DNA from: Streptomyces luteogriseus
GTDB lineage: Bacteria > Actinomycetota > Actinomycetes > Streptomycetales > Streptomycetaceae
Assembly: GCF_014205055.1 (NCBI RefSeq)
Contig: NZ_JACHMS010000001.1
Coordinates: forward strand, 4,650,001-4,714,000
Length of the DNA stretch: 64,000 nucleotides
Reading direction: 5' to 3'
Position 1 is the first letter of the stretch. Each line of letters starts with the position of its first letter. The notes below the pieces were generated by a model. The model made no database searches, was not told the DNA's origin, and saw only the letters and a list, made by a program, of their open reading frames with translations. Both the position numbers and the translations under genes were made by a program. Below are positions 22,387-43,123 of the stretch, one piece after another.

Positions 22387-22888
22387 AACCGATCAGGAAC
22401 AGCGCGCGGCGCAGGTCGTCGAAGGAGCGCTGAAGGACGCCGACCTGGAGTGGGAGAGCCCACAGCCCGGCACCTACGTCGCGCAGCTCCCCGGCACCCG
22501 CAAGCTCAAGACGACCGTCTCCCTGATCATCGGCCGCCACTCCCTGTCGCTGAACGCCTTCGTCATCCGCCACCCCGACGAGAACGAGCAGGGCGTCCAC
22601 CGCTGGCTGCTGGAACGCAACCTCAAGCTCTACGGCGTGAGTTACGCCGTCGACCAGCACGGCGACGTCTACGTCACCGGCCGCCTCTCCCTGCCCTCCG
22701 TCACCCCCGACGAGCTCGACCGGCTGCTCGGCCAGGTCCTGGAGGCCTCCGACGGCGCCTTCAACACCCTGCTGGAGCTGGGCTTCGCCTCGGCGATCCG
22801 CAAGGAGTACGCGTGGCGGGTGTCGCGGGGTGAGTCCACGCGCAACCTGGACGCGTTCGCCCACCTCACCCAGCGCCCCGAGCGCTGA
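22379..22888 (+). CDS. YbjN-domain protein, 169 aa
   Basis: A type III secretion chaperone-like YbjN fold: [70 protein letters not shown] and [17 protein letters not shown]. It overlaps mshA by 8 bp, and mshA-ybjN adjacency is conserved in Streptomyces from memory. Its biochemical role is unknown. The last codons and stop lie in a 35-bp sequence that is tandemly duplicated downstream. Confidence 0.8.
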
Positions 22889-22930
22889 ACCCCGTCCACC
22901 TCACCCAGCGCCCCGAGCGCTGAACCCCGC
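22861..22930. repeat. 35-bp tandem duplication of the ybjN 3' end
   Basis: The segment beginning CCACCTCACCCAGCGCCCCG at 22861, which encodes the last YbjN residues and the TGA stop, is repeated at 22896 with only the last base changed. A shortened third copy (CGGCCTCACCCAGCGAGCGC) starts at 22931 and runs up to the AraC stop. The extra copies are non-coding, so this looks like replication slippage. Confidence 0.8.
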
Positions 22931-22949
22931 CGGCCTCACCCAGCGAGCG

Positions 22950-23750
22950 CTAACCCGCCTTGTAGCGCCCCGGCGGCACCCCCACCAGCCTGCGGAAGTG
23001 CCGGGTGAGGTGCGACTGGTCGTAGAACCCGGCCGCCACCGCCGTATCGCCCGGTGAGCGCCCCTCCAGCAGCAGCCGCCGGGCGCGCCCCACGCGCAGG
23101 GACGTCAGGTACTGGTGCGGGGCGATGCCGTAGGCCGCGCTGAACGCCCGTACGAGATGGGCGGGATGGGCGCCGAGCAGCCCGGCGGCCTCCCGCAGCG
23201 CGACGCCCTCGACGATCCGCTCGTCCAGCAACTCGCGCAGCCGCCGCGCGAGAACGGGATCCGCCGGCCGCGCGGAAGCGGGGTCGCCGACGCCCCGCAG
23301 GTGCCCGCGCAACCGCTCCCCGACGAACAACAGCCTGCTCTCGGACTCCAGTTCCTCACCGGGCCGCCCCAGCGCGCCGTGCAACTGCCCCACCCGGCGC
23401 CGCAACAGCGGATCGCGCAGATCGGGCCGGTCGACGGCCGCTCCGATCAACTCGTCCCCGAGGTGCGTCCCGTCCAGGTACAGCACCCGCTTGCGGAAGC
23501 CCTCCGGGGTGACGGGGGAGCCGTTGTGCGGCACGTGCGGCGGCAGCAGCGACACGGTGTCGTGCGGGGTGCCGTGCTCGTGCCGGTCGAGGTCGTACCG
23601 TACGGCGCCGGTGTCGACGATCAGCAGCGTCCAGGCGTCGTGGACGTGCATCGGATACGCGTACTCGGTGAACCGCGCGTGGAAGACCTCGACGACACCC
23701 GGGACGGCGGGCCGCCAGGCGGAGACGATCCGGGAGGACTCGGAGGCCAT
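22950..23750 (-). CDS. AraC-family transcriptional regulator, 266 aa
   Basis: An N-terminal cupin-like domain (HARFTEYAYPMHVHDAWTLLIVDTG, with the His pair) and a C-terminal AraC double helix-turn-helix (LRELLDERIVEGVALREAAGLLGAHPAHLVRAFSAAYG, then AGFYDQSHLTRHFRRLVGVPPGRYKAG, in segments). It is divergent from the DUF2000 gene across 49 bp, so it probably controls that gene. Confidence 0.85.
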   Translation of the reverse strand: MASESSRIVSAWRPAVPGVVEVFHARFTEYAYPMHVHDAWTLLIVDTGAVRYDLDRHEHGTPHDTVSLLPPHVPHNGSPVTPEGFRKRVLYLDGTHLGDELIGAAVDRPDLRDPLLRRRVGQLHGALGRPGEELESESRLLFVGERLRGHLRGVGDPASARPADPVLARRLRELLDERIVEGVALREAAGLLGAHPAHLVRAFSAAYGIAPHQYLTSLRVGRARRLLLEGRSPGDTAVAAGFYDQSHLTRHFRRLVGVPPGRYKAG

Positions 23751-28500: not shown

Positions 28501-29262
28501 ATGGCCGACGCACCGTACAAGCTGATCCTCCTCCGCCACGGCGAGAGCGAGTGGAACGAGAAGAACCTGTTCACCGGCTGGGTGGACGTCAACCTCACCG
28601 CGAAGGGCGAGAAGGAGGCGACGCGCGGCGGCGAGCTGCTCAAGGACGCCGGCCTGCTCCCCGACGTCGTGCACACGTCCCTCCAGAAGCGCGCCATCCG
28701 CACGGCGCAGCTGTCCCTGGAATCCGCCGACCGCCTCTGGATCCCGGTCCACCGCAGCTGGCGCCTCAACGAGCGCCACTACGGCGCTCTCCAGGGCAAG
28801 GACAAGGCCCAGACGCTCGCCGAGTTCGGCGAGGAGCAGTTCATGCTGTGGCGCCGGTCCTACGACACCCCGCCCCCGGCGCTCGACATCGACGCCGAGT
28901 ACTCCCAGTTCGCCGACCCGCGCTACGCGACCCTCCCGCCGGAGCTGCGGCCGCGCACGGAGTGCCTGAAGGACGTCGTCGTCCGCATGCTCCCGTACTG
29001 GTTCGACGCGATCGTCCCCGACCTGCTGACCGGCCGCACGGTCCTGGTCGCGGCCCACGGCAACTCGCTCCGCGCCCTGGTCAAGCACCTGGACGGCATC
29101 TCCGACGCGGACATCGCGGGGCTCAACATCCCCACGGGCATCCCGCTCTCCTACGAACTCGACGCCGACTTCAAGCCGCTCAACCCGGGCGGCACGTACC
29201 TGGACCCCGAAGCGGCGGCAGCGGCCATCGAGGCGGTCAAGAACCAGGGCAAGAAGAAGTAG
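28501..29262 (+). CDS. gpmA: 2,3-bisphosphoglycerate-dependent phosphoglycerate mutase, 253 aa
   Basis: A glycolytic enzyme interconverting 3- and 2-phosphoglycerate. The phosphohistidine motif [20 protein letters not shown] is at residues 9-28; the family loop [13 protein letters not shown] and the second catalytic histidine in [16 protein letters not shown] follow. The protein is full length. The final codons QGKKK-stop lie inside the 18-bp att repeat, so integration of the mobile element leaves the coding sequence intact but replaces the downstream DNA. Confidence 0.95.
29244..29261. other. attL: left core repeat of the AICE
   Basis: CCAGGGCAAGAAGAAGTA occurs here at the 3' end of gpmA and again at 43106-43123. 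The flanking bases differ on both sides (A/G here, C/A at the right). The 18-bp direct repeat includes two bases of the stop codon, as expected for a site-specific integrase crossover within a gene end. Confidence 0.85.
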
Positions 29263-29340: not shown

Positions 29341-30579
29341 TCAGCGCGGCGGGTCCTGCGGCGGGCGGAGTGCTTGACCGAGAGCCTTCCGGGCCCGGTC
29401 GCGGCTGCTCGGCATGAGGTGCGCGTACACCTTCAGCGTGAGTCCCGGGTCGGAGTGCCCGAGGTACTCGCTCACGGCCTTGATGCTCTCGCCCGCGTCC
29501 AGCAGTACCGACGCGTAGAAGTGCCTCAGGGCGTGCATGCCGTGCTCGCGCGCGGCGGTGTGCTCCCGGCTCTTGGCCTTCGGGATGACGCCCACGGAGG
29601 CCAGGGCGGGCTTCCAATGGTCCTCATTCAGCGAGGTGCGCCAGACGTGGCCGCCGTTGGGCCCGGTGAAGATCAGCCGCTTGGTGACGGGCTGGCCGTT
29701 CGCCCGCATCCAGGGCAACGTGATCTCGACGGGCGGGAAGCGCTTGATGTGCTCCTTGAGTGCTTCCGCCACGGGATCGGGCAGCGGGACGTCACGGAGC
29801 TTGCCGCCCTTCGGGGGCGCGAACACGGCCTTACTCAGGCTGAGCTTGAGCTGCTGCACCACATGCAGGGTGCCGCTGTCGAAGTCCAGCTCATCCAGGG
29901 AGAGTCCGAGGATCTCGCCTTGCCGTAGGCCGCAGCCGGCGCCCATGTCCACCATGGGCCGGAAGCGTTCGACCATGGCGGCCCGCATGGCGAAGACGCG
30001 TCCCGGCTCCCAGGGGACGACCCGGCGCATGCCCATCTCGGGGAGCGTCACCGTGCGCGAGTTGCACGGGTTTCGGCGAAGGTAGCCGTCCTCTACGGCC
30101 GCAGAGAGCACGGCCCGGACGTTGGAGAAGATCACACGGGCGTATGCGCCCGACATGCCGGACGCTTCGAGCTGTGTCACGAACTCGCGGATGTGGCTGG
30201 GTTGGAAGGACCCCAGGGGCCGTGACCCGATGCGGGGGAAGGCGTGCAGCTTGAGCTGAGACTGCATCGACGCGCGGGTGTTCGGGTCTCCGCTCTGGCT
30301 CGCGAGCCAGCCTTCCGCGAACTCCTGGAACGACGTCCGGGACGCGTTCGGGTCGATGTAGTCGCCCCGGGCGACGTCCGCCGTGACCTTGCTCAGCCAC
30401 TGCTCGGCGAGTCGCTTCTGTCCGTCGGGGAACGACTTGCCCTTGCGCTTCCCGTCGGGCGCGAAGTAGCGAGCCCGGTAGCGCAGGCCGGTCCCATAGC
30501 GCTCGGTCTTGATTCGGACGGTCTTGCCGTTCGTGTCGGTCTGGGTCTTGTACCAGCGGTCTTGGATGCTGCCTGCCAT
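29341..30579 (-). CDS. int: Tyrosine site-specific integrase, 412 aa
   Basis: The full set of tyrosine recombinase residues is visible: Arg219 (GCGLRQGEILGL), Lys near 257-260 (PPKGGKLRDVPL), His349-x-x-Arg352 (HALRHFYAS), His375 (LGHSDP) and nucleophile Tyr385 (KVYAHLMPSS). The N-terminal arm-binding region (about 1-75) and a SAM-like core-binding domain (about 82-165) precede the catalytic part. It catalyses integration into gpmA and, with Xis, excision. It lies adjacent to attL and downstream of the excisionase gene. Confidence 0.95.
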   Translation of the reverse strand: MAGSIQDRWYKTQTDTNGKTVRIKTERYGTGLRYRARYFAPDGKRKGKSFPDGQKRLAEQWLSKVTADVARGDYIDPNASRTSFQEFAEGWLASQSGDPNTRASMQSQLKLHAFPRIGSRPLGSFQPSHIREFVTQLEASGMSGAYARVIFSNVRAVLSAAVEDGYLRRNPCNSRTVTLPEMGMRRVVPWEPGRVFAMRAAMVERFRPMVDMGAGCGLRQGEILGLSLDELDFDSGTLHVVQQLKLSLSKAVFAPPKGGKLRDVPLPDPVAEALKEHIKRFPPVEITLPWMRANGQPVTKRLIFTGPNGGHVWRTSLNEDHWKPALASVGVIPKAKSREHTAAREHGMHALRHFYASVLLDAGESIKAVSEYLGHSDPGLTLKVYAHLMPSSRDRARKALGQALRPPQDPPR

Positions 30580-30655: not shown

Positions 30656-30901
30656 TCAGGCCGCGACGCCGTCGACGTTCTTGAGCTGAGTCACGTAGGC
30701 CCCCACTTCGGCGGGGTCATAGCGCACGTGCTTGCCGACGCGGAAGCCGGGGGGACCGGTGCGCTTCCTGCGCCACTGGTAGACGGTTTCGAGGGGGACG
30801 CCGAAGATCTCGGCGATGTCGTCGGGCTTGAGGTACCGGTCGGGGAGATCGCTGCGGAGGGTGGCGCGGGGGTCGGGTTGAGCGGAACCAGGTCGGCTCA
30901 T
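30656..30901 (-). CDS. xis: Excisionase / MerR-like helix-turn-helix protein, 81 aa
   Basis: A compact winged helix-turn-helix of the excisionase type: DRYLKPDDIAEIFGVPLETVYQWRRKRTGPPGFRVGKHVRYDPAEVGAYV (about residues 21-70). It sits directly upstream of the integrase in the same direction, the usual AICE arrangement, and should direct excision by binding att-arm DNA. Confidence 0.8.
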   Translation of the reverse strand: MSRPGSAQPDPRATLRSDLPDRYLKPDDIAEIFGVPLETVYQWRRKRTGPPGFRVGKHVRYDPAEVGAYVTQLKNVDGVAA

Positions 30902-30974
30902 GGAGTCCTCAGAGGTTGAGTCGCGTTGGCTTTGGGGGTCTCGGACTCAGCGTGTGTCCGAGGTGGGGATTTCT

Positions 30975-31180
30975 GCGTCACAGCGTCACCTGCGTCACTC
31001 AGGCTTCTGACCTGCGGATTTTGGGTGACGCAGAGGGGTGGGGGTGCGTCACGCGTGACGCAGGCTGTCCGTCACGCGTGACGCAGGTGACGCGGCGTGA
31101 CGCAGTCGGGAGCGTCTGCGTCACGCCCCGTCTGCGCAGGTCACCCGCTGTTTTCGGGGTGCCGTGTGACGCTGTGACGC
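30975..31180. repeat. Iteron-like cluster of GTGACGC / GCGTCAC heptamers
   Basis: About twelve copies of GTGACGC or its complement occur in 206 bp: 30975, 30983, 30992, 31025, 31046, 31055, 31078, 31087, 31097, 31118, 31166 and 31174. TGCGTCACGCGTGACGCA at 31045-31062 is a perfect 18-bp palindrome. The block fills the non-coding gap between xis and the replication ATPase. It is a candidate replication origin or initiator-binding region, or Xis-binding array. Confidence 0.75.
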
Positions 31181-31296
31181 AGCGTTCCCCTACTTAGGAA
31201 AAAGAGCGGGTGTTTGTGGTGGTGCAGTGCCGCTCAGGACGTGAAGAAGGAGCCGCTGCGCGGCGCGTCCAGCGCAGGGCGGCGGCGCCGCCGAAC

Positions 31297-31336
31297 AGCA
31301 AGAGGAGCACGCCTGGCCGGTGGTGCTCCTCTTGCT
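31297..31336 (-). terminator. Terminator after the replication ATPase gene
   Basis: AGCAAGAGGAGCAC (31297-31310) pairs perfectly with GTGCTCCTCTTGCT (31323-31336) across a 12-base loop. It lies 19 bp beyond the ATPase stop codon on the minus strand. The remaining DNA up to the iterons shows no gene. Confidence 0.65.
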
Positions 31337-31354
31337 CGTGCGCGGCGGCACAGG

Positions 31355-32830
31355 TCAGAACGCCTGCTGCTCGTGCGAGGGCGGGGCGGCCGGGGAGCGG
31401 GTCATCAGGATGAAGCGGCCCTCGCGGGTGCGGCCGGAGTCGATGAGGACGCCACGTGCGGCGAGGGTCGGCTGTAGGCGCTTGAGCCGGTCGGAGAGCA
31501 CCTTGCCGGTGGTGGGCCAGCCCTTGGGCAGGGGACGGAAGTCTTCCCCCGTGTAGACGCGGCTGAGGCAGTGCAGCCACTCCGTGGACGTCATCCGCTG
31601 CTCCGCGCCCGCTTCGAGACCGGCGGCGTGCTGCAACACGGTCTGCGCCAGCAGGTCACCCTCGATCACGTCGTCGTTCAGGTCGTCCAAACTCGCCCTG
31701 TAGGCGGTGAGCGCTCCGAGACCGGTGGCGGCGTCGAGCTGCGCGCACAGGTGCGCGAAGTCGGCCATGCGCAGATCGGTCGGGGTCTCTGCCTCCACCG
31801 CACGGACCTTGACCGTCAGGTCCAGGAGCGAGCCGAGGACGACGGGCAGCACCTCCGCGTACTCCGTCCACAGCTCGTCCTCGGTGCGCCGCACCCGGGG
31901 CCGCTCCAACCGCAGCGGCAGCAGCCGTTCGGCGAGGTCGGGGCGGATGACTCCGACGTCGATACCGGTCAGGAGCAGGGGGCGGCGGTAGCCGACGCGG
32001 AACACGTCCCCGTCGGTGAACAGGGCGCGCTTGACGTTCTCGGCGCCGGTGACGATGCAGCACATCGCGTCGGACAGGTCCGGGCTCATGTGGGAAAGGT
32101 TGTCCAGGGCCGTGACCCATCCGGCGGCCACGGCTGCGAGCAGGTTCTCTTCGTCCTTCGGGGCTCGGCGCAGGTCGCCGGTCATGCCCTCGATGATGCG
32201 CACGAGCATCCGGCCGCCGGTGGACTTGCCGGCGCCCTGCGGCCCGGTGAGGAACGGGGCGGGGACGGGCACGGATGGACCGAGGCAGCCGACCAGCCAC
32301 GCGATGGCCAGGCACTCGGTCTCGGCGGTGGCGAAGTTGCACAGCCTGAGCAGCAGATCGATGCCCTTGCCGTCGGTGTTCTTGACCGGCAGGGGGAGTT
32401 CGCCGGTGAGCTGCGTGCGGCGCCAGCACACCTCACGCGGGTCGGGGACGGTGATGTCCCAGCCGGTGGGGTGGATGCGGACGGACTGGCCGTCGGCGCG
32501 GCCCAGGTCCAGCCACGTCGCCCCGTCGAATCCGGGGGCGACGCGGATGTGTACGGGCTGCACGTCCTCGGTGAGCGCTAGTGCTTCGATCAGGTCCAAC
32601 GCCTCCTTGAGTGCGGTTCCGTTGAATACGCCGAGCCCGTCCTTGAAAAGGCCGACCATGAGTTCCTGCCGGTGGCTGCCCGTCGTGCCCTGGGAGCGGA
32701 TGGGGCGGGCCACGGGGTGGCCGTTGCGCTGCGCGTATACGGTTCCGTCGGCGGTGCGGAAGTAGCGGAAGTGCGCCTGCGCGTAGTCGGTGATGATCTC
32801 GCGGGCGGGATTCTTCTCGTCGTCGGCCAT
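31355..32830 (-). CDS. Replication ATPase/helicase-like protein of the AICE, 491 aa
   Basis: Walker A FLTGPQGAGKSTGGRMLV is at about residues 193-210, with VTALDNLSHMSPDLSDAMCCIVTG as the Walker B-like/sensor region about 40 residues later. The arrangement resembles phage D5/superfamily 3-type helicases. The N-terminus has FRYFRTADGTVYAQRNGHPVA, usual in actinomycete prim-pol-associated helicases. It starts one base after the prim-pol stop codon, so the pair should be made together. It probably drives AICE replication after excision. Exact helicase class is uncertain. Confidence 0.7.
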   Translation of the reverse strand: MADDEKNPAREIITDYAQAHFRYFRTADGTVYAQRNGHPVARPIRSQGTTGSHRQELMVGLFKDGLGVFNGTALKEALDLIEALALTEDVQPVHIRVAPGFDGATWLDLGRADGQSVRIHPTGWDITVPDPREVCWRRTQLTGELPLPVKNTDGKGIDLLLRLCNFATAETECLAIAWLVGCLGPSVPVPAPFLTGPQGAGKSTGGRMLVRIIEGMTGDLRRAPKDEENLLAAVAAGWVTALDNLSHMSPDLSDAMCCIVTGAENVKRALFTDGDVFRVGYRRPLLLTGIDVGVIRPDLAERLLPLRLERPRVRRTEDELWTEYAEVLPVVLGSLLDLTVKVRAVEAETPTDLRMADFAHLCAQLDAATGLGALTAYRASLDDLNDDVIEGDLLAQTVLQHAAGLEAGAEQRMTSTEWLHCLSRVYTGEDFRPLPKGWPTTGKVLSDRLKRLQPTLAARGVLIDSGRTREGRFILMTRSPAAPPSHEQQAF

Positions 32831-32831
32831 G

Positions 32832-33680
32832 TCACAGTCCCAACGTGGTCAGGGCGTTGGTCCACGCGTCGGTGCAGTGCCGGGGGGATTCGCCCTTGGC
32901 TTGCGCGGCGGTGAACAGCCGCCCGATGTGGGCGTCGGTGAGGCAGCCGCACCGGCCGTGCGTGGACAGCACGGCGAGGAACGTCCGGTAGACGGTGGCG
33001 TGGATCGCGGTGCGGGCGGCGGTGATGCGCTGCTCGGCCATGGCGATGCCGCGTTCCAGGAAGGCGGGCGTGCGGTGCGGGCACTGGCCGCCGCCGGACC
33101 GTACGGGCGCGGAGATGGAACAGGGCGCTGGCAGGGACGGGGAGGGCCCCTTCAAGGCCAGCGCGCGGACGAGGTCGGGCAGGTCGGTCATGGTGCCGGT
33201 GCCGGGCCCGAGCCATCGTGCGTATGCCATCGTCGACTTGATGTCGACCCCGGGCCGGACCGCGTTGTGCGATGTCATGGCGCCCTGGTAGATCCAGTGC
33301 TCACCGCGCGTCGTCTGCACGGCCCGTGTGGCGGGCAGGGTCTCGCGGGCCCATGCGACGGCTGCCGCGTCGTCGAGGTCGACCACGGTCAGCCCGGCGG
33401 CGCCGGGGTGGTAGGCGACGCAGACGGCCCGGCGCCATGCGGCCGTCCAGGCCGGTGAGGTGAGGACGTCCGGGTCGGTGGTGGCGGCGGCCCACGCGTG
33501 GCAGACGCCGGGGCAGCGGCAGGGGCCCGCGCTTTTCATGTTCGGCCGGCCGCCGCAGGCGTTGTTCGCGCAGGCACGGCAGTTGCCGAATGGCGCCTTT
33601 CCCGCGCGCAGGGGCAGCACCGGCACGCCGGTAGCAGCCAACATCAGTGCGGTACGCAGGGGATCGGGCAGCGTGTTCAT
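32832..33680 (-). CDS. Bifunctional DNA primase/polymerase (prim-pol), 282 aa
   Basis: The prim-pol fold is supported by LMLAATGVPVLPLRAGKAPF at the start, a Cys-rich insert (CRACANNACGG, GPCRCPGVCHAW) likely to bind zinc, LTVVDLDD with the metal-binding acidic pair, and VDIKSTMAYARWLGPGT. It would make the primers and possibly extend them for element replication (RepPP-type). Its start overlaps the methyltransferase stop by 4 bp. Confidence 0.8.
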   Translation of the reverse strand: MNTLPDPLRTALMLAATGVPVLPLRAGKAPFGNCRACANNACGGRPNMKSAGPCRCPGVCHAWAAATTDPDVLTSPAWTAAWRRAVCVAYHPGAAGLTVVDLDDAAAVAWARETLPATRAVQTTRGEHWIYQGAMTSHNAVRPGVDIKSTMAYARWLGPGTGTMTDLPDLVRALALKGPSPSLPAPCSISAPVRSGGGQCPHRTPAFLERGIAMAEQRITAARTAIHATVYRTFLAVLSTHGRCGCLTDAHIGRLFTAAQAKGESPRHCTDAWTNALTTLGL

Positions 33681-34372
33681 GCGGCAGCCTCCAGACCGGT
33701 TGCGGTCAGCAGGGTGAGTGCGGCGTGCCCGATGTGCTCGGTGTAGACCGGGGGGATGCATTCGCGGATGCCGTCGCGGTTCATCCACGGCACCCCGAGC
33801 ACGCGACGGGCGAGGTCGACGCCGGAGAAGTTGCCGACGAACTGCCCGTAGTGGCCGGGCGGAACGGGGCGGCCCATCTTGGCTTGCGGTACGAGGTGTG
33901 CGGGGTGGCCGGGCTGGGCCAGGGTGAAGCCGCCGCCGGTCTCGAAGTACCGGTGCCGGTAGTTGGCCAGGCCGAACATCTGCCCGCACAGCATCACGGG
34001 AGCGTGCAGCTTGGGCACCGCGCCGCGCACGTTCTCCATGACCCACGGCCGGCCGGTCGTCTCCAGCGCCGCGCGGGTCGGGGCGATCAGGTCGGGGTGG
34101 GTGTTGCCCTGGATGCGCTGGCACTCGGTGTCGTGCTGGCAGGGCGGTGAGGCGTGGATGAAGTCGAACGCGGCCCCGTGTTCCAGGATGAACGCGATCG
34201 CGTCTGCCTGCACGAACCGGAAGGGGTAGCGGGGCTGGGGCGTCTTGTCGACGCCGGTCACGTTGAACCCGGCGTCGTCGTAGCCTTTGCCGGCGCCGCC
34301 CTGGCAGCAGTACAGATCCAGTAAGCGCGGCCGACGGCCGTGTACTCGCCGGAAGGTAGCGGGTTGCGTCAT
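33677..34372 (-). CDS. C5-type DNA methyltransferase-like protein, 231 aa
   Basis: Motif I LLDLYCCQGGAGKGYDDAGF (in order), the catalytic Cys78 in ASPPCQHDTE (motif IV) and WVMENVRGA (motif VI) identify a cytosine C5 methylase. It is short at 231 aa: a clear target-recognition domain is missing, so the specificity or even activity is uncertain. Compact homologues are a recurrent part of AICE backbones. It is coupled to prim-pol by a 4-bp overlap. Confidence 0.75.
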   Translation of the reverse strand: MTQPATFRRVHGRRPRLLDLYCCQGGAGKGYDDAGFNVTGVDKTPQPRYPFRFVQADAIAFILEHGAAFDFIHASPPCQHDTECQRIQGNTHPDLIAPTRAALETTGRPWVMENVRGAVPKLHAPVMLCGQMFGLANYRHRYFETGGGFTLAQPGHPAHLVPQAKMGRPVPPGHYGQFVGNFSGVDLARRVLGVPWMNRDGIRECIPPVYTEHIGHAALTLLTATGLEAAA

Positions 34373-34460: not shown

Positions 34461-34925
34461 CTAGCTGTGGAAGTGGTTGCGCTTGAACGTGGCCTTACGG
34501 ATGTTGACCGTGGTCCCGCCGTGGTGGCTGCTCGCGCTGAAGAGCTGCACAGCGATCCATCCGCCGAAGATGACGGCGGCCAGGGTGATGAGTTGGGTGA
34601 TGAAAGCGGTGAGTGCGGCGATGAACGAGGTGAGCAGGATCAGCCCGCCGCACACGGCGAGGAACCCGACGCCTCCGAGGGCGACGTTCACGGCCGTGCG
34701 GGACACGGCCGGCTTGGCCGCGACCGGCTCGGGCTGGACGGGGTTGATGGCGTAGCCGGTGACGACGCGGCCGTCGGGCAGGACGATGCTCGCCACCGCG
34801 GGGATGCTGCCCGGCTGCGCCTGCACGACCGGTGCCGGGACGGTGACGGCGGGCGGGAGCGGGGTCGGCTGGTGCACCTCTATGGCCCGTTCGGCGGGCG
34901 GCTGGTGGGTGTGGTCGGGGTACAT
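34461..34925 (-). CDS. DUF6251-like AICE membrane protein, 154 aa
   Basis: A proline-rich N-terminus with the linker SIVLPDGRVVTGYAINP is followed by two adjacent membrane helices (about residues 80-105 and 108-132) and a basic C-terminus (VNIRKATFKRNHFHS). I recall this as DUF6251, usually found next to the AICE translocase gene, and small membrane Spd-type proteins help plasmid spreading. The function here is inferred from location. Confidence 0.55.
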   Translation of the reverse strand: MYPDHTHQPPAERAIEVHQPTPLPPAVTVPAPVVQAQPGSIPAVASIVLPDGRVVTGYAINPVQPEPVAAKPAVSRTAVNVALGGVGFLAVCGGLILLTSFIAALTAFITQLITLAAVIFGGWIAVQLFSASSHHGGTTVNIRKATFKRNHFHS

Positions 34926-35129: not shown

Positions 35130-37247
35130 TCATTCGCCGACGGAAGCGGAACCCTCGTTGTTGCGGTTGGCGAGGGCGCGGGCGACGCGGTCGCGGCCGA
35201 CGACCATGCGGCCCTCGGACTTGTAGGGCTCGGCGTCGACGTCCTCCAGCACGCGCTTGAGGTCGCCGGGGGTCCACCGGCCGTAGGTGTCCTCGCTGAG
35301 CGCGGAGAGCCGCTTGAGGACGTCGGCGGTCAGGACGCGGGAGGCGTTGCCGAGGACGGAAGCGATGTCGGCGAGGTGGTCGCGTTCCTCGCCCCGTTCG
35401 ATGACGTGCAGGGTGGTGACCCCGTCGCGCAGGGCCTTGGCCCGCTCGGCGATCTCGGTTGCGTCGTCGGTGCTGATGTAGTGCGTGCGCACCGTGATGG
35501 ACGCCTGACCGGCCGGGATGTCGATGCCGTCGGAGGCGACGACCAGGGTTCCCTTGTCCAGGCCCTGGCGCAGTAGGTGAGGGGCGGCGCCGCCGTCGAC
35601 GGCCTTGTCCCCCAGCGCCATGCGGGCCTGTGACTCGGTGCCCAGGGCGAGGGAGGCGCGGGTGTGGGCGCCCTCGCGGACCAGCTTGGGAAGGTTCTGG
35701 TCGGTGGGGTCCTGCGTGCCCTGCCACAGCAGCACGTTGACCGCACGGCCCTGGTTGTGGACCTTCCGGCAGGCCATGAAGTACCGGGACTCGTTCCGGG
35801 ACCCGCCGTAGGGGCGCTTCTGCTCGTCCTTGGCGGGGCACATGAACGCCACCTGCGCCTCGTCCACGAGCAGGATCAGCGGCGGGAAGGCGGTGCCGGG
35901 CGGGGCCTGGAGACGGCGGTTCATCTCCTCGACGCCGTCCTCGACCATCTCGGTCGCCTCGATCACGTGCTCATCGGTGGGACCCTGGATCAGCACCGTG
36001 GCCAGGCCATCGAACATGGCCCAGTCGCCCACGCCCTTGAGGTCGGCGATGCGGAACTCGGCTGTGCGGTCAAAGGCGAGCCACAGCGCGAGCGCCCGCA
36101 GCGCGGCCGTCTTGCCCTGGTTGGACAGGCCCGTGACCAGCAGCATCCGCTGATACAGGCTCAGCAGAGCCGCGTCCCCGCGCAGGTCCTGGCCCCAGGG
36201 GGCGCGGCCCTTGGCGTAGTCGGCGGTGAGTGACTCGTCGACGGCCAGCGGGGACGGGCCGATCGGCTCGTCCAGCGCCCCGGAGTCGGCGATCCACAGC
36301 CGCACCGTGCGGGCGGCCTGGGGGATGGTGATGAACACCTCGTGCTCGTGCCGGGTCAGGTTCTCGGCAAGCTTCCGGCGCTTGTTCTGCACCTCCACCG
36401 TCGACACCCCGGAAGGGAGGGTTACGTCGACTTCCACGCCGCATCCGGCGATGCGGATCGGTCCGAGCATCGAAGCGCCGGCGTCGCCCATCTCTTTGAT
36501 GGCGTTGCGCAGCGCGGGCACGCCGAGGTCGCGCAGGGCCTTGACCACGATGGACGGCGTGATCGGCTCCCCCTCCCCGTTGCGGACGCTGTCGGGCAAT
36601 GCCCACTGGGGTGCGGCCTGCTGCTTGCGGCCGACCGACCACAGTGCGAGCAGGGCGAACAGCGGGCCGAGGGTGACGGCGTAGGGCCAGACCACCTGGA
36701 CGATGGTGATGAGCAGGCCGATGAACTCGATCACCGCAGTCAGCGGCGTGATGACGTCGGCGACGTCCTTGGTGTTGAGGGCCATCACGATGCCGAGGGC
36801 GACCAGGGTTCCGATGCTCATCCCGGTGCCGATGGCGGCGCCCTTGGCCACGTCGACGGGCGAGGTGAGCAGGTCCATGCGGCGACGGTGCCGGGCATCC
36901 CGGAAGCGCTGCAACCGCTCCTCCCACTCCTCAGCCAGCTCGTGGTTCCCCGCGGCTTCCGCAGCCCGGATCATGCGTTCGTAGCGAGAGCCGGTGCGCC
37001 CATCCCAGGTGCGGCGGGCCACGATCCGGCCCCCGTTGAACGTGTACATCCCATGGCGGGCCACCGCACGAAGTGCGGTCGTGGTGCGCTCGTCGGTGGC
37101 GACGCGCTTCACGGCCCGCCCGGAGCGCACCCACAGCGGCACCGGGGCCGGGGCGGCCGGGTCGGTCACCACGGTGAGCGTGGTCACCGGCGCGTCCTGA
37201 GGAGCAGGTTCGGGGGTCTTGTGGAGGCGTACGACGTTGTCGGACAT
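35130..37247 (-). CDS. traB: TraB/FtsK-SpoIIIE-family conjugative DNA translocase, 705 aa
   Basis: An AICE transfer protein thought to pump double-stranded DNA between mycelial cells. Membrane helices are at about residues 136-157 and 171-207. The FtsK-like motor has a variant Walker A MLLVTGLSNQGKTAALRAL (about 366-384), FRIADLKGVGDWAMF and Walker B PPLILLVDEAQVAFM (about 452-466). The C-terminus (LSALSEDTYGRWTPGDLKRVL) looks like the winged helix that recognises repeats in the clt locus. ATG at 37247 was chosen over an upstream extension. Confidence 0.9.
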   Translation of the reverse strand: MSDNVVRLHKTPEPAPQDAPVTTLTVVTDPAAPAPVPLWVRSGRAVKRVATDERTTTALRAVARHGMYTFNGGRIVARRTWDGRTGSRYERMIRAAEAAGNHELAEEWEERLQRFRDARHRRRMDLLTSPVDVAKGAAIGTGMSIGTLVALGIVMALNTKDVADVITPLTAVIEFIGLLITIVQVVWPYAVTLGPLFALLALWSVGRKQQAAPQWALPDSVRNGEGEPITPSIVVKALRDLGVPALRNAIKEMGDAGASMLGPIRIAGCGVEVDVTLPSGVSTVEVQNKRRKLAENLTRHEHEVFITIPQAARTVRLWIADSGALDEPIGPSPLAVDESLTADYAKGRAPWGQDLRGDAALLSLYQRMLLVTGLSNQGKTAALRALALWLAFDRTAEFRIADLKGVGDWAMFDGLATVLIQGPTDEHVIEATEMVEDGVEEMNRRLQAPPGTAFPPLILLVDEAQVAFMCPAKDEQKRPYGGSRNESRYFMACRKVHNQGRAVNVLLWQGTQDPTDQNLPKLVREGAHTRASLALGTESQARMALGDKAVDGGAAPHLLRQGLDKGTLVVASDGIDIPAGQASITVRTHYISTDDATEIAERAKALRDGVTTLHVIERGEERDHLADIASVLGNASRVLTADVLKRLSALSEDTYGRWTPGDLKRVLEDVDAEPYKSEGRMVVGRDRVARALANRNNEGSASVGE

Positions 37248-37298
37248 GCTGAGGGTTCTCCTGACTGCCCCGATCAGGGGCGGGCGTTGAGGGAGAGA

Positions 37299-37340
37299 CC
37301 GGGGGTGGCCTGGTCCTGGCAGACGAGAGGCCACCCCCGG
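37299..37340 (-). terminator. Terminator-like hairpin upstream of traB
   Basis: CCGGGGGTGGCCT (37299-37311) pairs perfectly with AGGCCACCCCCGG (37328-37340) around a 16-base loop. It lies 15 bp after the stop of the HExxH gene and 52 bp before the traB start, so it could reduce read-through into traB. Confidence 0.6.
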
Positions 37341-43105: not shown

Positions 43106-43123
43106 CCAGGGCAAGAAGAAGTA
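43106..43123. other. attR: right core repeat of the AICE
   Basis: Second copy of CCAGGGCAAGAAGAAGTA, identical to that at the gpmA 3' end. It is followed by AGCAGCG and then by the displaced gpmA terminator. The sequence to its right is therefore the original chromosomal DNA. Confidence 0.85.

Follow-up and report, generated by a model that had tools for sequence, protein, structure and literature searches.

A two-sided GTGACGC iteron array as the probable Rep-bound replication origin of an SLP1-type AICE in Streptomyces luteogriseus

The dense array of GTGACGC repeats next to the rep gene of an integrated element in Streptomyces luteogriseus is very probably the Rep-bound iteron origin, of plasmid type, of an SLP1/RepPP AICE. 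Judging from homologues and from the layout of the region, the array would act as the origin in vivo, and the comparison supports the original prediction, which had read it as an initiator-binding origin. The best explanation is an origin of an already known kind, namely the Rep-bound iteron origin of the SaPI/P4 type; what is possibly new here is a predicted specificity switch in Rep, together with a concrete origin for SLP1-type AICEs. No published origin of Prim-Pol/RepPP AICEs was found in the open-access literature, subscription journals lying mostly outside the search. The analysis thus names a precise origin candidate and its likely initiator for a common AICE class.

We propose that the element would excise and that Rep, encoded beside the array, would bind the iterons via its C-terminal winged helix, the recognition helix reading TGACGC and the wing-tip residue 469 reading the first base. 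Several Rep subunits would gather on the two-sided array and presumably form helicase rings; the assembled Rep would open the DNA, and the adjacent Prim-Pol would prime synthesis. Binding, assembly, melting and priming would here proceed as in the relatives of Rep, on which these steps are modelled.

The repeat array and its host element

The window, which is the whole 64-kb stretch of DNA that was analysed, contains the following repeats around the proposed origin.

30975..31180, no strand assigned: iteron array with 12 exact GTGACGC in both orientations, the proposed Rep-bound replication origin
31045..31062, no strand assigned: perfect 18-bp palindrome TGCGTCACGCGTGACGCA, two iterons head to head
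30965..31190, no strand assigned: outer inverted repeat with arms 30965-30989 and 31166-31190 (25 nt, 88%)
31286..31347, no strand assigned: inverted repeat just past the rep stop codon, conserved in relatives, likely a transcription terminator

As had been predicted, about a dozen copies of one heptamer are present in both orientations (12 exact copies of GTGACGC/GCGTCAC, spread over both strands), and the predicted 18-bp perfect palindrome is found among them. The fuller repeat unit is GRTGACGCAG, and a 13th, degenerate iteron (GTGACGGAC) lies on the minus strand at 31067-31075. A near copy of the palindrome occurs 23 bp on (31067-31087), and the arms of the outer inverted repeat give the whole array dyad symmetry. 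A second motif, TGACCTGCG at 31008-31016 with its inverted copy CGCAGGTCA at 31135-31143, lies in the two longest stretches of the array that are free of iterons, and it is conserved in relatives. The array was said to fill a gene-free gap of 206 bp; the gap is indeed gene-free, but it measures about 450 bp, from the rep stop codon (31355) to the xis start codon (30901), and the array is only its xis-side part. It begins 174 bp beyond the rep stop codon, hence beside the prim-pol/ATPase module as originally described; on its other side, the xis start codon follows 74 bp downstream.

Outside the array, GTGACGC reaches at most one copy per 206-bp stretch across the whole 64-kb window, in which no other heptamer attains 12 per 206 bp and no other iteron cluster of this kind occurs. 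Simulation of 200 first-order Markov sequences, each 64 kb long, never gave more than 3 copies per 206 bp. Given that the heptamer is not enriched window-wide (24 observed vs 24.7 expected), only its clustering is special. A genome-wide search for three copies in direct orientation at the spacing tested returned only the array and one unrelated 36-bp tandem repeat. It should be noted that a looser scan for three spaced GTGACGC matched 277 of 393 genomes, and as many of these matches are unrelated GC-rich tandem repeats, the spaced pattern is not diagnostic by itself. AT content shows only a mild peak (about 51%) just outside the array; no strongly AT-rich melting region was seen at or beside it, and a search for DnaA boxes allowing up to two mismatches found none.

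The array lies in a module whose genes, from the TraB-like gene to the integrase gene, are all on the minus strand, in the order translocase, small membrane protein, methyltransferase-like protein, Prim-Pol, Rep, array, Xis and integrase.

35130..37334, minus strand: FtsK/TraB-type DNA translocase (phrog_1358, E 1.7e-17; weak NF041214)
34461-34925, minus strand: small membrane protein
33677-34372, minus strand: 231-aa protein overlapping the Prim-Pol start (PHROG 363, DNA methyltransferase, E 3.9e-33)
32832..33680, minus strand: Prim-Pol, 282 aa, primase partner (PF09250, E 6.9e-10, above cut-off)
31355..32830, minus strand: Rep, 491 aa, helicase-type ATPase with a predicted C-terminal winged helix; proposed iteron-binding initiator (RepPP type)
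30656..30901, minus strand: Xis-like helix-turn-helix protein, 81 aa (PF12728; phrog_66, excisionase)
29341..30579, minus strand: tyrosine integrase (PF00589)
29244..29261, no strand assigned: candidate att direct repeat CCAGGGCAAGAAGAAGTA, 18 bp, 3' end of a CDS; other copy at 43106-43123

One integrated element therefore encodes a tyrosine integrase, Xis, Prim-Pol plus RepPP, and FtsK/TraB. This gene content is that of the RepPP AICEs described by Ghinet et al. (PMC3218068), probably of the SLP1 type. The end of the Prim-Pol gene adjoins rep. Pfam, NCBIfam, PHROGs and PDB sequence searches gave no family name above cut-off for Rep. The candidate att pair would bound an element of about 13.9 kb at the 3' end of a protein-coding gene, not of a tRNA gene; a tRNA-Pro called by ARAGORN at 22869-22953 sits in a local repeat and is probably spurious. 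The methyltransferase-like protein is present in only 29 of the 124 loci of the close set described below.

Association of the array with Rep

We collected the loci whose Rep is >80% identical to that of the window (the close set, n = 124, with 109 distinct gap sequences). The original prediction had named the absence of a repeat array in close relatives as the observation that would speak against it; the array was found at the same place in all 124. The arrays have a median of 12 copies (range 6 to 15) of the consensus GRTGACGCAG, at positions about 170 to 380 bp past rep that are largely conserved, as are the orientations, with variable inner sites. The repeats are thus adjacent to rep and conserved with rep, as in iteron origins. 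Relatives with a named organism come from Streptomyces and a few close genera, and a homologous Rep is carried by 110 of 294 sampled genomes of the order.

The neighbouring genes are less constant. Among the 76 loci with long flanks, which were scored for homologues of the window Xis, integrase and TraB, these were present in 33, 48 and 48, respectively. In the 28 long loci where no homologue of this TraB occurs, the median is still 12 iterons, and in the 16 that lack both Xis and TraB homologues it is 13 copies. As judged from these sequences, the array belongs to Rep and stays when integrase, Xis and TraB are replaced.

An array in the same place is also kept on free plasmids with Reps 60–69% identical, where its neighbour is parA instead of xis. 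In more divergent systems, the repeats often differ. Reps of about 60% identity (L021, L145, L149 and L150) go with GGGGGACGCAG arrays and carry an insertion in the wing, while the pFP11 group (Rep 36% identity) has (A)GGGACGCA repeats, L023 and L024 have ACCGTCC arrays, and L026 and L036 have ATGTCCC arrays. More distant Rep families often have other repeats downstream of rep, and in several distant family members no clear array was detected near rep by the 7-mer criterion. Viral contigs (L167–L179) carry distant Rep homologues, mostly without an iteron cluster near the gene.

Rep residue 469 and the first iteron base

Rep was modelled with AlphaFold2 from 27 sequences (pLDDT 85, pTM 0.84), which yielded an ATPase core followed by a C-terminal winged helix.

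31397..31603, minus strand: Rep residues 410-478, predicted winged helix (AlphaFold2)
31460-31507, minus strand: predicted recognition helix, Rep 442-457, sequence almost constant in close relatives
31424..31426, minus strand: codon of Rep residue 469 (Arg here), predicted wing tip and predicted specificity residue for iteron base 1

The modelled winged helix comprises helices 415-427 and 442-457 and strands 461-468 and 471-478, residues 469-470 being placed in the wing turn between the two strands. The best solved structures returned by Foldseek were AsfvPrimPol, the SaPI5 primase-helicase, NrS-1 and poxvirus D5-type helicases, with TM-scores of only about 0.5.

Across the close set, we asked how well the share of A at iteron base 1 is accounted for by each variable alignment column of those seven element proteins that occur in enough loci. 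At 81% of the base-1 variance (R2 0.81), Rep residue 469 comes first, against 36% for the next best Rep column. The best columns of Prim-Pol and Xis reach R2 values of 0.20 and 0.43, respectively; one TraB column reaches 62%, from 12 sequences only. Thus, among the binders originally put forward, the ATPase is favoured, while Prim-Pol and Xis are not, the latter also because the array persists where this Xis is absent. From these sequences and the model, Rep is likely the binder of the array.

Residues R, K or N at position 469 go with G at iteron base 1, and S, F, Y, M or Q with A; this class predicts the base in 105 of 107 elements, the two exceptions being L084 and L015. L084 pairs Arg469 with A-type iterons, and the element closest to it is of the Ser/A type; this would agree with a recent change at residue 469 that the array has yet to follow. 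On a tree built from rep DNA minus its last 95 codons, the residue-469 trait and the base-1 trait each changed 18 times. Independent pairs on well-supported branches nearly always agreed 5:0, with a median p of 0.06, the minimum possible with five independent pairs. Moreover, in 16,000 tree simulations of an independently evolving trait, agreement never exceeded 85 of 107, vs 105 of 107 observed. Given that Rep and the array are neighbours, part of the association could reflect joint inheritance; however, columns beside 469 associate far more weakly with iteron base 1 and five different residues give the same result, so linkage alone is unlikely.

The change extends over the array. Of 14 common iteron positions, 7 shift from ≤11% A to ≥67% A between the two types, and most of the remaining ones are relaxed in G-type arrays. 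The helix segment KVLSDRLKRLQPTLAA is nearly unvarying across close relatives, as is the TGACGC core. Overall, we consider it fairly probable that residue 469 is a single-residue specificity switch, in which R/K/N reads G and S/F/Y/M/Q accepts A, and that after each switch most of the dozen dispersed iterons were rewritten together, repeatedly in the history of Streptomyces AICEs. More than 100 natural Rep/iteron pairs hence form a series for studying how an initiator and its binding sites change together, which is also useful for building compatible Streptomyces vectors.

Some iteron positions tolerate A with Arg/Lys Reps: alignment columns 430, 538, 594, 603 and 566 are sites that differ in strictness, and at column 566 the iteron stays mostly G even in A-type arrays. 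These differences suggest different roles of the sites. One genome (G011) harbours two elements of different predicted iteron types, L013 (Lys/G) and L029 (Ser/A), and offers a natural pair for a comparison of compatibility. As counted by eye, co-resident elements share their iteron type in 7 of 8 genomes, so there is no sign of incompatibility driving the switch.

Alternative explanations and known systems

All the evidence for Rep binding would also fit if Rep bound the array mainly as a copy-number or incompatibility control site, like the crr site of phage P4, and replication started elsewhere, for example in the rep gene. A second region reported to matter for SLP1 replication (PMC3218068) was not located in the window, which is in keeping with this explanation. 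We nevertheless regard it as unlikely, given that the iterons next to repA are required for replication in pWTY27 (PMC3583192) and that the window holds no second iteron cluster of this kind. Still less probable is recognition of the origin through a folded stem-loop, the mode proposed for pRN1, which would make the repeats a by-product of inverted symmetry. The single strand of the array region does fold far better than shuffled sequence (z = -11.4), and the pRN1 origin is a stem-loop downstream of the prim-pol/helicase gene, ORF904 (PMC4234260). Against this, the repeat is retained in either orientation and the inner sites vary; A- and G-type iterons, which would pair incorrectly, occur together in many arrays; and the repeat sequence is predicted by a protein residue (469).

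The remaining explanations attach the array to other genes of the element. The array could be a clt transfer locus bound through repeated 8-bp motifs by the FtsK/TraB translocase, which the element does encode, and clt sites contain short repeats (PMC3583192). This was rejected as highly improbable: the iteron type tracks Rep residue 469, the array adjoins rep about 4 kb from tra, and its copy number is as usual in the 28 loci, out of 76 with long flanks, that have no homologue of this TraB. Equally slight is the chance that Xis or another regulator of the element binds the array, controlling excision and the xis-int promoter, as its position upstream of xis might suggest. Only 33 of the 76 long loci have a Xis homologue but all have the array, and on plasmids with related Reps its neighbour is parA instead of xis; as the array goes with Rep and not with xis, this candidate was rejected as well. 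A partition site (parS) would agree with the location between rep and parA in related free plasmids; its likelihood is negligible and it was set aside, since the window element keeps the array without an adjacent parA, its neighbours being xis and int, and the array follows Rep rather than parA.

A Rep-bound iteron origin can be compared with several known systems. The SaPI/PICI Rep-ori (PMC7581432, PMC6092414) shares with the window Rep a helicase initiator that has its iterons directly downstream of its own gene, and SaPI Rep binds them with its C-terminal domain (PMC7581432); the window Rep likewise has a C-terminal DNA-binding domain, seen in the model only. Its fold matches the SaPI5 primase-helicase, while the PDB sequence search revealed no sequence similarity. 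In PICI origins, an AT-rich region is flanked by two sets of iterons; no such arrangement was seen here, and we therefore did not file the array as a SaPI/PICI origin. P4 alpha, which binds its origin repeats with a winged helix (PMC4234260), is like the window Rep as modelled a helicase with a C-terminal winged helix, and the pRN1 origin resembles the window layout in lying downstream of the replication gene. Unlike in the window element, the primase is fused in both P4 alpha and ORF904, and pRN1 uses a stem-loop rather than iterons.

Closer parallels are found in Streptomyces plasmids. For its replication, pWTY27 depends on repA, on the primase/polymerase gene repB and on a neighbouring iteron sequence of 300 bp, to which RepA binds in vitro (PMC3583192). 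The Prim-Pol gene of pWTY27 is co-transcribed with repA and, as here, adjacent non-coding iterons occur in both orientations; judged from coordinates, they adjoin the repA 3' end. By its published description, the pWTY27 iteron differs (GTGGGAAC), and pWTY27 is a free, non-integrating plasmid. The pFP11 plasmid of Streptomyces sp. F11 (NC_006911) encodes a homologous Rep (36% identity) beside a Prim-Pol gene, and (A)GGGACGCAC repeats lie downstream in both orientations, as in the window array; in contrast, their core is GGGACGCA, about 550 bp and a small gene separate them from rep, and the plasmid is free. The RepA of pFP11 has been reported to bind its iterons (PMC3583192), and since the annotation contains only one visible Prim-Pol/Rep pair, homologous to that of the window, this Rep homologue is probably the published iteron-binding RepA.

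SLP1 and the RepPP AICEs carry a Prim-Pol plus RepPP operon within an AICE (Ghinet 2011, PMC3218068), as does the window element. In one close relative (L043), Rep is 93% identical and a 12-iteron array is present in an element beside tRNA-Tyr. A tRNA-Tyr gene is the SLP1 integration site, and SLP1 thus probably carries an array of the window type. Unlike SLP1, the window element has its candidate att site at the 3' end of a protein-coding gene.
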